Shown here in pieces: positions 7,578 through 14,857 of a stretch of DNA of 64,000 nucleotides. This DNA is from Holosporaceae bacterium. GTDB lineage: Bacteria > Pseudomonadota > Alphaproteobacteria > UBA3830. The stretch covers positions 124,001 to 188,000 of the forward strand of contig JAISYI010000022.1 in the NCBI GenBank assembly GCA_031269995.1, read 5' to 3'. The first letter of the stretch is position 1. Every line of letters starts with the position of its first letter. The position numbers and the translations under genes are program-made. The notes beneath the pieces are model-generated. The model worked only from the letters and a program-made list of their open reading frames with translations. It did no database searches and had not been told where the DNA came from.

Positions 7578-7697
7578 CGCATTCGTCGTCGCTCCCCGAC
7601 CGTCTTCTCCATTCCAGAAGATGGGAAGAAAAAGTGTTACCCACCGATCACATTCCGTGCCTATTCAACATAAAAAGATACGATTACAGGTTTTTTA

Positions 7698-7749: not shown

Positions 7750-8673
7750 ATGAAAAAAAAGTTTATTATTGGAATGCTCGCGTTGAGTCTAGCCCCGGGG
7801 ATCGGAGCGACACAGGAGGTCGGTGAGACAGAACAAGAAGAGAATTGCTCAGAAGAAGAAGCTGGGAAGAGTGAGACTTTCGGTTCCTTTGGATTTGGAG
7901 CAGCGATTACGAGAATGCGAGCGAAAACGGATAGGGGTTCTGTGACCAAAACGGATGGAACGGTAATGGAGTTAGGCGGGGAGTCACCGACCTGGGAGTT
8001 GCTGAGAAGACTGAGCGTGATGGGGTTCCTAAACGTACGGAGTCACAACGCGGACGCACTTGGACGCACTACGGCCTTCGAAGCGGAGGGACCGGTCGGA
8101 GGGCCTACATTGGACAGGAAGGTAACGACCCCCACCCTCATATTCGGAGGGGGGTGGATGCGCAAATTGGAAGGTGGATACAAAATGGGAGGAGAGTACA
8201 GGATTGAATTATCACCATCGAAGAAACAAAACAGTAATACGAACCAAGGCGATATCCCGTTCCCGAGAGTACAAATGACCTCGGCAAAACGCGGCGGATT
8301 CAGTCAACAACTGACTCTGAGAATGGATCTACCCTTCCATGGGACTCAGACAGGATGGTACCTGAGAACAGGGGCAGAAATTAACACGATGACAGTAGCA
8401 ATTGCGCACTTACCGGACCAAAGGATAACCACCGTGTCGCCGGTGTACGCCATTGGACTACTACACAGATTTGGCGACCTGCAGGCACGATTAGAAATAC
8501 GCAGATCCTCAGGAAAAACAAAAATGAAGGACCTGACAGAAAACATAACACTACCGGTCGGACAGCCAGACGTAAATGGGAACATAACAGCGGTGGCAGT
8601 CAGGCATACAATGACAAACGCATACGATTCACAAGGAACCTGCGTCAGCCTAATCATCGATAAAATATTCTAG
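7750..8673 (+). CDS. Putative outer-membrane beta-barrel protein, unknown role
   Basis: The frame opens at 7621, but the ATG at 7750 is preferred: GGAGAG lies 8 bases before it and the protein then begins with a clear signal peptide (MKKKFIIGMLALSLAPGIGA). The mature part opens with an acidic Glu-rich stretch, followed by alternating hydrophobic/polar segments rich in Gly, Thr and Arg. It ends in Phe (IIDKIF), as outer-membrane barrels often do for BAM recognition. About 307 residues. No family recognised. It is followed after 64 bases by a second exported protein with a very strong Shine-Dalgarno, suggesting a two-gene envelope unit. The barrel assignment is inference from pattern, not from homology. 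Confidence 0.65.
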   Translation: MKKKFIIGMLALSLAPGIGATQEVGETEQEENCSEEEAGKSETFGSFGFGAAITRMRAKTDRGSVTKTDGTVMELGGESPTWELLRRLSVMGFLNVRSHNADALGRTTAFEAEGPVGGPTLDRKVTTPTLIFGGGWMRKLEGGYKMGGEYRIELSPSKKQNSNTNQGDIPFPRVQMTSAKRGGFSQQLTLRMDLPFHGTQTGWYLRTGAEINTMTVAIAHLPDQRITTVSPVYAIGLLHRFGDLQARLEIRRSSGKTKMKDLTENITLPVGQPDVNGNITAVAVRHTMTNAYDSQGTCVSLIIDKIF

Positions 8674-8737
8674 CAGGGGATTGACAAAAGACCGAGATCA
8701 GGCGACAATGACCCAACACAATAGGAGGAGAAAAAAT

Positions 8738-9724
8738 ATGAAAAAGGCAATAGCATTAGCAGCGCTGATAGCGTACGCACTGATACAGAACCCCGCGGAC
8801 GCAATGCGAACATGGGCACCAAAATCGGCGGCAGCATATGTACAACTGGCCGCGGTCCCACTGCCGGCGGCACAGCCGAACAACGTACTTGTAAGAGAAT
8901 TGAAAGACCTCTGCAGAATGACAGTTAATGATGCAGCCGCGTTAGCGAACCCGGCATCGTTGAGATGTCAGCGGGGAGGGAATGGAATTGTGGCCGTGGA
9001 GGCGTATGAATTGGGGTGGGCACACGCAAAAGGCGAATTATTCGCCGATGTTGACATGTTGGACGACGCCGGACAAATCCCCCTGGCGGCTGAGTTCGAC
9101 GCAGCGCAGAACCAACAGCACGCACAGCGCACAATCGCTTTGCCCGCGAGACTCGCACTGACTGACCTGTGGGCACCACTTGCCGGAGGTGACCGGCAAA
9201 CGTTGGCCCCGGCAGCGGGCCAAGCGGGAGCGATCAACCAGGGCGCGGGCGCGGCGGTCGACATAATGGTCGCCAACCTGCAAGCGAACGGCCTGCTGAT
9301 GGCGCCGGGCGCCCACGGAAACGCAGCGAACCTGCCGGCCAACGCGGGAACGCACGTAGCCTACCTGACGAACATCGCACAAACCCTTGAAGCAATACCA
9401 ACAGCTGCGATAGCTGCGTGGGGAACGGTCGCGGGTGGTGCTGCACAGACAGCAGAAGCTGTACTCGGAACACTGGCGGACTACCAGGTAGGAGGAGGAG
9501 CCGCACTAGGAGCAATCGCAGGAAACAACGGAGCCAATGGGACCGTGGGCATACACGTAAACTTAATGACGTGCCTCATCCTGTCCCTAGAAACATTTGC
9601 AGTCAACCCGGTGGCGGGACCGGTCGCAGCAATCGGAGGGATGCCTGGGTACATCAGAACTATGCCAGTACGTTACTGGAGGCAAATAGAGCGGATGAGA
9701 CATATAGCGGTGTTCGGAAACTGA
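8738..9724 (+). CDS. Ala/Gly-rich secreted protein, unknown role
   Basis: Starts at the ATG at 8738 directly after AGGAGGAG (8723-8730), the strongest ribosome-binding site seen here, which suggests high expression. The N-terminus MKKAIALAALIAYALIQNPADA is a signal peptide. The mature 300 residues are dominated by Ala, Gly, Asn and Leu, with runs such as GAGAAVDIMVANLQ and VAGGAAQTAEAVLG that could form amphipathic helices. Two cysteines lie near the mature N-terminus and one near the C-terminus. The DNA is clearly richer in G+C than its neighbours because of the GCN/GGN codons. No family recognised. A surface-layer, matrix or secreted structural protein is possible, but this is only inference. 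Confidence 0.7.
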   Translation: MKKAIALAALIAYALIQNPADAMRTWAPKSAAAYVQLAAVPLPAAQPNNVLVRELKDLCRMTVNDAAALANPASLRCQRGGNGIVAVEAYELGWAHAKGELFADVDMLDDAGQIPLAAEFDAAQNQQHAQRTIALPARLALTDLWAPLAGGDRQTLAPAAGQAGAINQGAGAAVDIMVANLQANGLLMAPGAHGNAANLPANAGTHVAYLTNIAQTLEAIPTAAIAAWGTVAGGAAQTAEAVLGTLADYQVGGGAALGAIAGNNGANGTVGIHVNLMTCLILSLETFAVNPVAGPVAAIGGMPGYIRTMPVRYWRQIERMRHIAVFGN

Positions 9725-9752
9725 CGGTTAGGTACACAAGAATGAGAAAAAG

Positions 9753-9803
9753 GTTCAGCCCGAGGGGATCCTGCCCATGAAATCGACAGAGTAAGGGCTG
9801 AAC
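9753..9803 (+). repeat. 9-bp inverted repeat downstream of the Ala-rich gene
   Basis: GTTCAGCCC at 9753-9761 is perfectly complementary to GGGCTGAAC at 9795-9803, with a 33-base spacer. It begins 28 bases after the stop of the Ala-rich protein gene. No T-run follows, so it is not an ordinary intrinsic terminator. It could stabilise the 3' end of the upstream mRNA or be part of a small RNA. Confidence 0.5.
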
Positions 9804-9814
9804 GATGCATAATA

Positions 9815-9833
9815 GCGGGACTGAAGTACCCGC
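9815..9833 (+). repeat. Small hairpin GCGGG/CCCGC
   Basis: GCGGG at 9815-9819 pairs with CCCGC at 9829-9833 around a 9-base loop, 12 bases after the preceding inverted repeat. It is followed by an A-run on the plus strand, not a T-run. Read on the minus strand, the hairpin would be preceded by T residues, so it does not look like a terminator in either direction. With the larger repeat, it makes the 223-base gap 9725-9947 unusually structured. Confidence 0.35.
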
Positions 9834-9947
9834 GAAAAAACACAGAACAGGCGGATCGGCAACCTGAGTAGAAGGGCGCAATTCGGCATTCCGACGGAAA
9901 ACACGGGAATAAGACAACACAACAAATTAGGAGATAAAAAAAAGACC

Positions 9948-10688
9948 GTGCCGACGTTGACCCGCCAAAAAATCGTGAATTTAAAACATCTATTGGACGG
10001 ACACACAGCAGGAAATTCGGTCAGAATAGAAATACGAAGGAATACCTGCTCAGCCGGCCTCGACATACGTACCGGAGAGAGAAACAAGCAGCCGATGGGG
10101 ACATTGGCTGAAAAATGGAGAAACTTCCTAACCCAGGAGAAAAACGAAAACATCGTCTTGATCGCAGTCATACGAGATAGAGCCTTGGGAGGTAGCCTAG
10201 AGCTGGCATTGTCGGCGGACATACTAATAGCGGAAAGCAACGCGAAGTTAGCATTCCCGGAAGTGAACCTGGGTTTAATGCCAGGATTAGGAGGGACACA
10301 AATATTAACCAGACGGGTGGGACCCTATAAGGCGGCAGAATTACTGATGTTGGGAAAGGAATTCACAGCGGAGGAAGCCAGAGACATGGGGCTGGTAAAC
10401 TACGTTTTCGACGAAGCCGACCTGGAGGCAGAGGTGGAAAAACTAGTTAAGTTATTAGACTCAAAACCGCCGGAAAGCATCAAAAGAATCAAAAAGGCGA
10501 TCCGAATAGCCCAAAACGTAAGCCTAGAAGAAGGATTTCTAAAAGAAGGAGAACTATTCAATGAACTACTATTGACGGACGAGGCGCAGAAAAGAATAAG
10601 GAATTTTTTAGAAAAGAGAGACGAGAAGAGAAGATTAAGAGCAAAAGACAAAGCACGAACAAAGCACAAGAGAACAGAAATAGCATGA
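9948..10688 (+). CDS. Enoyl-CoA hydratase/isomerase (crotonase) family protein
   Basis: Crotonase-fold enzyme acting on an acyl-CoA thioester; the exact substrate is unclear. Start is the GTG at 9948, with AGGAG about 14 bases upstream. Oxyanion-hole motifs are present (CSAGLDI near residue 34 and ALGGSLELALSADI near 79). The Glu of GSLELAL and the Glu of FPEVNLGLMPGLGGTQ match the two catalytic glutamates of enoyl-CoA hydratases. The protein is 246 residues; its N-terminal strand is short and the last 25 residues are a Lys/Arg-rich tail unusual for the family. Its stop overlaps the nrdD start by ATGA, so the two are translationally coupled. No other beta-oxidation gene is in the window, so an isolated or repurposed role is likely. 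Confidence 0.85.
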   Translation: MPTLTRQKIVNLKHLLDGHTAGNSVRIEIRRNTCSAGLDIRTGERNKQPMGTLAEKWRNFLTQEKNENIVLIAVIRDRALGGSLELALSADILIAESNAKLAFPEVNLGLMPGLGGTQILTRRVGPYKAAELLMLGKEFTAEEARDMGLVNYVFDEADLEAEVEKLVKLLDSKPPESIKRIKKAIRIAQNVSLEEGFLKEGELFNELLLTDEAQKRIRNFLEKRDEKRRLRAKDKARTKHKRTEIA

Positions 10689-12745
10689 CGACAATATTAG
10701 TTGAAAGAGAAAGCGGCCAACAAACCTATATTATCAAGAGAAACGGAGCGAAGGCGAGATTTGATCCAGACAAAATAGCAAAGGCAATTGCAAAAGCAGG
10801 AAGAGAAACAGGGGAATTCACAGCCGAGGATGCGAACCACATCACGTTCAAGGTTCTGAAGGTATTGAAACACAGGCAGAACAGAGAAGAACCTGACATA
10901 GAACAGGTTCAAGACATAGTAGAACAAGCACTCATAAACGAAAACTACTTTAAAACAGCGAAGGCCTACATAATTTACCGTGAGAGACACGGAGCAATGA
11001 GGCGCAGCAAAAAGAATTTGGTAGACGTAGTACTCTCAGTAAATGAATATCTAGACAGAATGGATTGGAGGGTCAAAGCCAACGCGAATCAGGGTTATTC
11101 CCTCGGAGGATTAATACTAAACATATCGGGAAAGATGGTAGCAAACTATTGGCTAAACAAGGTATACCCGGAATCGGTTGCAATGGCGCACAGAAACGGA
11201 GATTTTCACATACACGACCTGGATATGTTGTCAGGTTACTGTGCAGGGTGGTCCCTACGCACATTATTAAACGAGGGATTTAACGGAGTACACGGCAAAG
11301 CAGAATCAAAACCTCCGAAACACTTTTCAAGCGCAATGGGGCAAATAGTGAATTTCCTAGGCACACTACAAAATGAGTGGGCGGGAGCGCAGGCATTCAG
11401 CTCGTTCGACACCTATCTGGCCCCGTTCGTAAGAAAAGACCAGCTGTCCTTTGACCAGGTGAAACAGGGATTACAGGAGCTTATTTATAACTTGAACGTT
11501 CCATCTCGGTGGGGAAACCAGACGCCCTTCACCAATTTGACATTCGATTGGATATGCCCAGAGGATCTGCAGGATAAGATCCCCCTCATAGGGGGAGAAG
11601 AGAGCAACTTCTCCTATGGAGAACTGCAGCAGGAAATGGACATGATAAATCGCGCCTACATCGAGGTAATGACCGAAGGAGACGCTAAAGGGAGAATTTT
11701 CACGTTCCCCATTCCGACTTACAATATCACGACAGACTTTCCCTGGGAGAGCGAAAATGCAGCAAGATTGTTTGAAATGACGGCCAAGTATGGACTGCCG
11801 TACTTTCAGAACTTCGTGAATTCAGACTTGAAACCCTCTATGGTGAGATCCATGTGCTGCAGATTGCAACTGGACCTGAGGGAGTTGTTGAAGAGGGGGA
11901 ATAGTTTATTTGGATCAGCGGAGCAAACTGGATCCATTGGTGTTGTGACCATCAACTGCGCCCGTCTGGGCTATCTGTACAAGGGAAACGAGGAGCAGCT
12001 CCTTTCCCGCATGGTAGAGTTGATGAACTTCGCGAAAATGAGTCTGGAAATAAAAAGGAAGGTCGTACAGCAGCACATGGATATGGGTTTATTTCCCTAT
12101 ACAAAAAGATACCTGGGAACCCTGCGCAACCATTTTTCCACAATTGGAGTAAATGGGATCAATGAAATGATTCGGAATTTTACAGATGACCAGCACGACA
12201 TCACCACCGAATATGGACACAACTTAGCAATTCGCTTCCTCGATAAGGCAAGAGAATCTCTATTAAAATTCCAGGCTGAAACGGGCAACATGTACAACCT
12301 GGAAGCAACGCCGGCCGAGGGGACCACCTATAGATTCGCAAAGGAAGACAAAAAGAGATTTCCAGCCATTCTGCAGGCAGGAACAGCAGAAATGCCATAT
12401 TATACAAACTCAAGTCAATTGCCTGTTAATTTTACCGACGATGCGTTTATAGCGCTTCAGGAGCAAAACGATCTGCAGAAAAAATACACAGGGGGAACCG
12501 TACTGCACCTATACATGAATGAAGCAGTATCCGGAGCGAATGTTTGTGGGAAATTGATTAGAAAAATTGTGGAAAATTTCAGCCTACCGTATTTTACCAT
12601 CACGCCTACGTTTTCTATCTGTCCTAAGCATGGATACATAACAGGAGAACATAAGTATTGTCCCCGCTGCGATGAGGCCCTGATAGAGAAGAAGAAAAGA
12701 GAGTTCTGGCAAAAGCAAGACACAACTTGCGCAGCGTGCAGTTAG
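10685..12745 (+). CDS. nrdD: NrdD-type ribonucleoside-triphosphate reductase lacking a visible glycyl-radical motif
   Basis: Reduces ribonucleotides to deoxyribonucleotides. Residues about 15-105 form an ATP-cone (IIKRNGAKARFDPDKIAKAI). The catalytic barrel follows with class III hallmarks: FHIHDLDMLSGYCAGW, NVPSRWGNQTPFTN, MVRSMCCRLQLD and GSIGVVTIN. The C-terminus has the zinc-ribbon Cys/His pattern (SICPKHGYITGEH, then CPRC). Class III enzymes normally then carry an RVxGY-type glycyl-radical loop. Here the chain ends only about 25 residues after CPRC, with TTCAACS: no such Gly motif, but a CxxC pair. No nrdG activase is in the window. The ATGA overlap with the crotonase and the 19-base overlap with the next transporter suggest one operon. 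It could be a radical-independent remnant or a variant using another radical source and thioredoxin. Confidence 0.9.
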   Translation: MTTILVERESGQQTYIIKRNGAKARFDPDKIAKAIAKAGRETGEFTAEDANHITFKVLKVLKHRQNREEPDIEQVQDIVEQALINENYFKTAKAYIIYRERHGAMRRSKKNLVDVVLSVNEYLDRMDWRVKANANQGYSLGGLILNISGKMVANYWLNKVYPESVAMAHRNGDFHIHDLDMLSGYCAGWSLRTLLNEGFNGVHGKAESKPPKHFSSAMGQIVNFLGTLQNEWAGAQAFSSFDTYLAPFVRKDQLSFDQVKQGLQELIYNLNVPSRWGNQTPFTNLTFDWICPEDLQDKIPLIGGEESNFSYGELQQEMDMINRAYIEVMTEGDAKGRIFTFPIPTYNITTDFPWESENAARLFEMTAKYGLPYFQNFVNSDLKPSMVRSMCCRLQLDLRELLKRGNSLFGSAEQTGSIGVVTINCARLGYLYKGNEEQLLSRMVELMNFAKMSLEIKRKVVQQHMDMGLFPYTKRYLGTLRNHFSTIGVNGINEMIRNFTDDQHDITTEYGHNLAIRFLDKARESLLKFQAETGNMYNLEATPAEGTTYRFAKEDKKRFPAILQAGTAEMPYYTNSSQLPVNFTDDAFIALQEQNDLQKKYTGGTVLHLYMNEAVSGANVCGKLIRKIVENFSLPYFTITPTFSICPKHGYITGEHKYCPRCDEALIEKKKREFWQKQDTTCAACS

Positions 12746-14080: not shown

Positions 14081-14857
14081 GTGAGGGTATTACTCTATAT
14101 TTTGTTGCAGGTTTGCTACACCAACAACGGGTATGGATTGGAAGATGATACAAATGGTAACGCAGATCCAAAGGTTCTAGTCGAGAGAAGCCAGGCAAGT
14201 ATCGACGACGAAGCATGCGATGTGGCAGGGTTTCGCCTGCTGGCAGGGATAATGATGGGTAAATTCACCTATGGAGCGACCATCGAGGGAAATTCAAAGT
14301 TCACTAACAATGATATGAATACCTTTGGAGGTTCCTTTGAATTTGAGTATGGACATGCGTTTAAAGATAATCTAACACTGCTAGTAGGTACCGGTGTTGA
14401 TATACTGAATCAAAAAGAAACGAGTAGTAGTAACCTGGAATATATAAATGAAGCGCTTAATTTATCTCCGCAGCATAATGGAAAGGGAGACACGGCGCAG
14501 CTCCGTAGCGGAGGTGCATCTCCAAAAGCTTTTGTAGGGTTAGGGTATCCCTGTATGAAGGATAATTTTCCACTCCTCCTTTTCCTGAAAGTAGGTATCA
14601 GTAAACAAACCGGTGAGTTCGAATGTTTTAGAAATGGAACCAGCTTTAAAAAGGCTCAAGTAAACTCATGGGGTCCGTTCCTACAGATTGGAGCAGAAAA
14701 GAAATTTAATAAAAAAGTTGATGTTGGGATATCACTAGCCCTATCTCCTCAAAAAAATAAGAAGCAGAGCGATTCCCCTCCACAAATAGTAAGATGCCAA
14801 GGCAGGGAGATCAGGTTATTCGCAGTCCTACGAAAGAATTTGCAGGAGAACAATTAG
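14081..14857 (+). CDS. Putative outer-membrane beta-barrel protein
   Basis: A 258-residue protein starting with GTG at 14081. The N-terminus (MRVLLYILLQVCYTNNGYG) is a short signal-like hydrophobic stretch. The body shows alternating patterns and Gly-aromatic content typical of small barrels (GGSFEFEYGHAF, LTLLVGTGVDI, PKAFVGLGYP, FLQIGAEKKF). The last residues are not the classical terminal Phe, and a Lys-rich loop precedes the final strand. No family recognised with certainty; Omp25/OmpA-like surface barrels of alphaproteobacteria are the nearest analogy. It is separated from the AmpG-like gene by 100 AT-rich bases without a clear terminator. Confidence 0.6.
   Translation: MRVLLYILLQVCYTNNGYGLEDDTNGNADPKVLVERSQASIDDEACDVAGFRLLAGIMMGKFTYGATIEGNSKFTNNDMNTFGGSFEFEYGHAFKDNLTLLVGTGVDILNQKETSSSNLEYINEALNLSPQHNGKGDTAQLRSGGASPKAFVGLGYPCMKDNFPLLLFLKVGISKQTGEFECFRNGTSFKKAQVNSWGPFLQIGAEKKFNKKVDVGISLALSPQKNKKQSDSPPQIVRCQGREIRLFAVLRKNLQENN

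Follow-up and report, generated by a model that had tools for sequence, protein, structure and literature searches.

Two consecutive forward-strand genes, separated by 64 bp, were found between valS-truA and an enoyl-CoA hydratase-like gene, the latter being followed by an nrdD-like gene that we take to be nrdD, for anaerobic ribonucleotide reductase (Table 1). They lie in a stretch of 64,000 nucleotides (the window) corresponding to bases 124,001 to 188,000 of a 273,902-base contig, in a genome of 847,721 bases (24 contigs, 94% complete). A simple, home-made signal-peptide test, also used for all counts of exported genes given below, was positive for the products of both gene 1 (MKKKFIIGMLALSLAPGIGA) and gene 2 (MKKAIALAALIAYALIQNPADA), confirming the two consecutive signal-peptide proteins read in a first-pass annotation of this DNA. 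In the list of open reading frames, gene 1 begins earlier, at an in-frame ATG at position 7621. The enoyl-CoA hydratase-like gene (9948 to 10688) has a GTG start and does not cover the initial ∼50 positions of the Pfam profile; a loss of its 5′ portion beside the pair is possible. The closest named records to TruA were from metagenome-assembled genomes (MAGs) designated ‘Holosporaceae bacterium’ (65 to 66% identity), which, judging from isolate names, appear to be of termite-gut origin. A clade of uncharacterized bacteria, many from termite gut, is included in a 2025 review of the Holosporales (PMC11909080). The genomes used for comparison were draft MAGs.

Table 1. Features of the two-gene locus (positions in the window)
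Feature	Position	Strand	Basis
Gene 1, barrel, 307 aa	7750..8673	+	ORF; family profile, leave-one-out test, alignment, Pfam matches of relatives
Signal peptide of gene 1	7750..7809	+	Home-made signal-peptide test
Promoter-like TTGACA-17-GACAAT, between barrel stop and gene 2 start	8681..8709	+	Consensus scan
Ribosome-binding site AGGAGG, 9 nt before gene 2 ATG	8723..8728	+	Sequence; rarity
Gene 2, exported Ala-rich partner, 328 aa	8738..9724	+	ORF, composition, no family match
Signal peptide of gene 2	8738..8803	+	Home-made signal-peptide test

Following its signal peptide, the gene 1 product consists of an acidic linker and eight strand-like blocks, of which the first and last connecting loops are long. 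It matched no Pfam family at an E value of ≤1. No meaningful match to either protein was identified in Pfam, NCBIfam, PHROGs, or PDB sequences, and thus no known family that would assign them an unrelated role; searches with the barrel against plasmids and with gene 2 against phages also returned no match. AlphaFold2 models of the single window sequences had pLDDT values of 29.7 (barrel) and 34 (partner), too low to be usable. One relative of the barrel was found directly, with 26% identity. A four-row profile gave matches in 30 of 45 related genomes, with up to ten per genome, and an eight-row profile matched in 36 of the 41 genomes of the family. Using leave-one-out HMMs, all tested barrels scored above every shuffled version (37 to 211 bits), and the 37 bits of the window barrel against its family were reached by none of the shuffles. 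Among 20 members of the barrel family, seven matched OMP_b-brl (best, 1.5e−10) and six matched OmpA_membrane (4.9e−6). Eight strand-like blocks, counted by eye, could be followed through the family alignment; the loop after the first of these was long and variable, and the last loop was also long. Based on the family profile, the Pfam matches of relatives, and the eight-block alignment, gene 1 is predicted to encode a lineage-specific small outer membrane barrel, probably 8-stranded, with its fold class assigned through its relatives; the long loops would point outward. The earlier description of gene 1 as barrel-like is thus supported indirectly, through the family, the window protein having no Pfam match of its own.

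The window contains a second member of the barrel family, with a weak score (28.6 bits over 14291 to 14728), at positions 14081 to 14857; it lies 4 kb downstream of the pair and is followed by a NUDIX gene. In genome G007, a 98-aa fragment (L124:4254-4550) resembling the C-terminal part of the neighboring barrel lies 1.6 kb from it on the other strand and looks like a truncated copy or cassette.

The composition of gene 2 is as distinct as had been noted at first reading. Its GC content is 59%, whereas 1-kb windows of the sampled contigs average 44.4% (SD, 3.6), and its region ranked second in GC among the 1,491 1-kb windows sampled; the protein contains 23% Ala and 10% Gly. No homologue of this partner was detected by pairwise scores with shuffles, by leave-one-out HMMs, or by profile-profile comparison with shuffled controls, and it is therefore assigned to the series of partners described below by its position, size, composition, signal peptide, and promoter. 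The exported product is probably abundant and probably helical. Codon usage was also considered as an indicator of high expression; it was dnaK-like in G000 and G007 and unlike dnaK in G001, and was dropped as an argument because noncoding DNA is also skewed.

The near-perfect Shine-Dalgarno sequence attributed to gene 2 was likewise borne out, and an upstream match of at least 6 nt to AAGGAGGTGA was present for 23 of 284 sampled genes of the window genome. The second hexamer of the promoter-like site ends 28 nt before the ATG. The partners in G001 and G008 (p1) have an equally spaced site that ends 28 to 29 nt upstream of the start, and at G008 p2 the TTGACA is present and the second hexamer is less regular; no such site was found before the short-gap partners of G007 and G009. 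Only 2 of 283 sampled genes of the window genome had such a site at such a distance, and the product of the other one begins like an exported protein. No terminator stood out after gene 2. Given a putative promoter of its own, identified by its match to the consensus, gene 2 is probably transcribed separately, perhaps strongly, which argues against a fixed barrel-to-partner ratio. The promoter geometry of the partner and the strong ribosome-binding site are compatible with high expression.

Several features of the surrounding DNA were recorded. At window positions 8000 to 11500, T is locally lost in favor of A in a strand-asymmetric manner; this region covers the barrel, the partner, the intergenic sequence 9725 to 9947 (A, 88; T, 28), the enoyl-CoA hydratase-like gene, and the start of nrdD. 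The enoyl-CoA hydratase-like gene (A3, 0.45; T3, 0.06) had the highest third-position AT skew among 317 sampled genes. The skew of nrdD was absent from all 11 other genomes of the genus (11/11), and the pair genes of G007 and G009 carry an AT skew of opposite sign to that of the window. GC-rich clusters of exported-protein genes were seen in G000 on contigs C23 (∼22.7 to 27.8 kb) and C22 (∼211 to 215 kb), some of whose proteins contain leucine-rich repeats that by eye are BspA-type-like. The window genome has a further pair of exported-protein genes at L272:3271-6017, encoding 233 aa and then 664 aa, the second of which resembles by eye a large outer membrane protein such as an usher.

To describe the association of the two genes, a barrel was counted as paired when an exported-protein gene lay on the same strand and ≤110 bp downstream, and as full-length when it matched the profile over its whole length, all others being partial homologues. 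Full-length barrels were paired at 13 of 22 loci, compared with 22 of 232 other genes of the same loci (p = 1.5e−7), and partial homologues in the same genomes were paired at 2 of 22 loci (p = 0.001 against the full-length barrels). With the eight rows used to build the profile removed, 8 of 14 were paired (p = 3.5e−5), and with one related clade additionally counted once, 5 of 11 (p = 0.003), the loci in all of these counts not being independent of one another. Across the window genome, an exported-protein gene came next after 21 of 314 sampled genes, and 4 of 52 exported genes were followed by another. The tree groups the window barrel with three others in a supported clade (96/94), and each of the four is paired with an Ala/Gly-rich partner, the partners measuring 289 to 330 aa; the window and G008 barrels form long branches, and their placement as sisters is unsure. 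Outside this clade, paired barrels are dispersed over the tree, and its well-supported branches require at least three changes.

The sites occupied by the pair are unrelated: by folC, after tmk, after a TPR-protein gene, or, in the window genome, after truA. None of the other same-genus genomes with a readable truA flank had a pair after truA. As the pair adjoins truA in the window and folC in G001 and G007, a truA-folC junction was considered as the shared ancestral site; truA and folC were adjacent in only one genome, and there without the pair. The recurrence of pairs at unrelated sites indicates that the two genes move or persist together. Thus, the barrel and the exported gene form a real, recurrent unit, in support of the two-gene unit of the first-pass annotation, and their pairing exceeds chance.

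Recurrence of this kind could still reflect neighborhood only, with fast-evolving envelope genes adjoining each other in small genomes and perhaps being coexpressed without any physical partnership; the barrel would then be a lineage-specific OmpA-like protein of the ordinary sort, and gene 2 would encode a secreted protein that has nothing to do with it. The scattered distribution on the tree fits this explanation, as do the promoter-like site belonging to gene 2, partners that are mostly nonhomologous to one another (see below), and the 9 of 22 full-length barrels that had no exported neighbor by the strict test, which indicate that the barrel does not always need one. However, mere proximity of envelope genes accords poorly with how seldom other genes of the same loci, exported genes in general, or partial barrels of the same genomes are followed by an exported gene, and with the recurrence of the pair at unrelated sites. 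It is a serious possibility, though one to which we would not lean.

Barrel and partner differed sharply in conservation. Among 120 pairs of loci, significant similarity (z > 5) was seen between the barrels in 100 and between the partners in 2. Within one clade, the barrels were 38 to 50% identical and the first 25 residues of the partners 36 to 72% identical, whereas the mature parts of the partners shared 22 to 32% identity, near background. Partners ranged from 121 to 582 aa and included Ala/Gly-rich, coiled-coil-like, Gln/Asn-repeat, Pro/Gln-rich, and Gly-rich kinds. Clear partner homologues were limited to G009-G007 (z, 16.5) and the tandem copies in G008 (44% identity), with G019-G034 as a second, weaker homologous pair (z, 10.7); G004 carries two exported genes with similar N termini. 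The first half of the partners was likewise unalignable, with no conserved stem. A multiple alignment of partners was rejected as evidence of homology after pairwise, HMM, and profile-profile tests failed, and the strong matches to a partner profile were mostly self-matches of the rows that had built it. Related genomes thus share the recurrent pairing but not the partner sequence, and an Ala-rich partner is typical of the window clade only. A barrel that remains recognizable beside a partner that has changed almost wholly is the pattern expected of a surface arms race.

Polymorphic toxin systems combine a conserved part with variable cargo. By analogy, the conserved neighbor and variable cargo seen here could suggest that gene 2 encodes a secreted effector or toxin-like protein acting on host cells or rival bacteria, with the barrel aiding release or protecting the producer. 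Family searches with the gene 2 protein identified no toxin, effector, or immunity domain, no small immunity gene was seen, and the layout of a variable tip on a constant stem was absent; furthermore, the low-complexity, repeat-rich partners look structural. An effector role is therefore considered improbable.

The reading that we favor, to which we give about an even chance, is that the two genes specify a surface unit in which a small outer membrane barrel serves as anchor for a fast-evolving exported protein. The barrel family, the statistics of pairing, the unequal variability of the two proteins, and the promoter geometry are observed; location, contact, abundance, and function are what we infer. 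The gene 1 product would sit in the outer membrane with its long loops facing out. The partner would cross the inner membrane by Sec, consistent with the signal peptide seen, and may then remain at or beyond the outer membrane beside the barrel, which would act as an anchor, receptor, or assembly partner rather than a pore. The partner would diverge much faster than the barrel, or have its mature part replaced, while its position and promoter geometry are retained, as is its signal peptide in one clade. Such change would probably be driven by contact with something that itself changes, be it the host, a protist of the host, phages, or competitors.

The first-pass annotation had suggested instead that the barrel might export the partner, as in two-partner-type secretion, where the barrel would be the exporting pore. 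The two genes are indeed adjacent, both products carry signal peptides, and a conserved membrane protein accompanies variable cargo. However, the mature barrel has 287 aa and only about eight strand-like blocks, and none of the 20 barrel family members matched a POTRA/Omp85 domain at an E value of ≤0.1. To our knowledge, small OmpA-like barrels have no protein-conducting pore. Because barrels of this size have no pore wide enough for a protein and the searches returned no POTRA domain, export of the partner through the barrel is unlikely and that part of the annotation was not sustained; a two-partner-type system is, in our estimate, highly improbable.

A further and more tentative proposal, which we regard as rather unlikely, is that the pair represents an undescribed two-component surface system of a host-associated alphaproteobacterial family, in which a conserved small barrel docks a hypervariable exported protein with a mature part that turns over too rapidly for common descent to show in anything but position, promoter geometry, and the signal peptide of one clade. 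If the two genes do form a surface unit, position beside a conserved barrel would provide a handle for surface proteins that are invisible to sequence search, applicable to uncultured symbionts related to termite-gut bacteria. The pair would also be a clear-cut case in which to test very rapid evolution limited to one of two paired genes, and would point to an anchoring role for outer membrane barrels too small to act as protein pores.

Among known systems, OMP_b-brl (PF13505) and OmpA_membrane (PF01389) proteins share with the barrel family a signal peptide, size, and eight strand-like blocks; the window protein differs in lying below threshold, in its very long first loop, and in its exported neighbor. 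Two-partner secretion (type Vb, TpsB-TpsA) likewise places genes for a barrel and an exported partner side by side, with variable cargo. TpsB transporters belong to the Omp85 proteins and combine two POTRA domains with a barrel of 16 strands (PMC9355242, PMC4490367), whereas the window barrel family lacks POTRA domains and is far smaller than TpsB, and the partners, unlike TpsA, are dissimilar to one another and are not large β-helix proteins sharing a TPS domain (PMC9355242). The window partner matched no family, the TPS domain and β-helix of TpsA included, and the partners of five relatives gave no family match above curated cutoffs. A resemblance to polymorphic toxin or CDI-like systems was not seen either, there being no conserved stem and no toxin or immunity match. 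Surface_Ag_2 was matched by 0 of 20 barrel family members at an E value of ≤0.1, and the window protein did not match it either. The Msp2 superfamily expression loci of Anaplasma comprise an outer membrane protein operon with opag genes, in which the antigen that varies is the barrel. The present loci resemble them in having multicopy predicted surface barrels beside exported-protein genes in a host-associated alphaproteobacterium with a small genome, but here it is the neighbor that varies and not the barrel.
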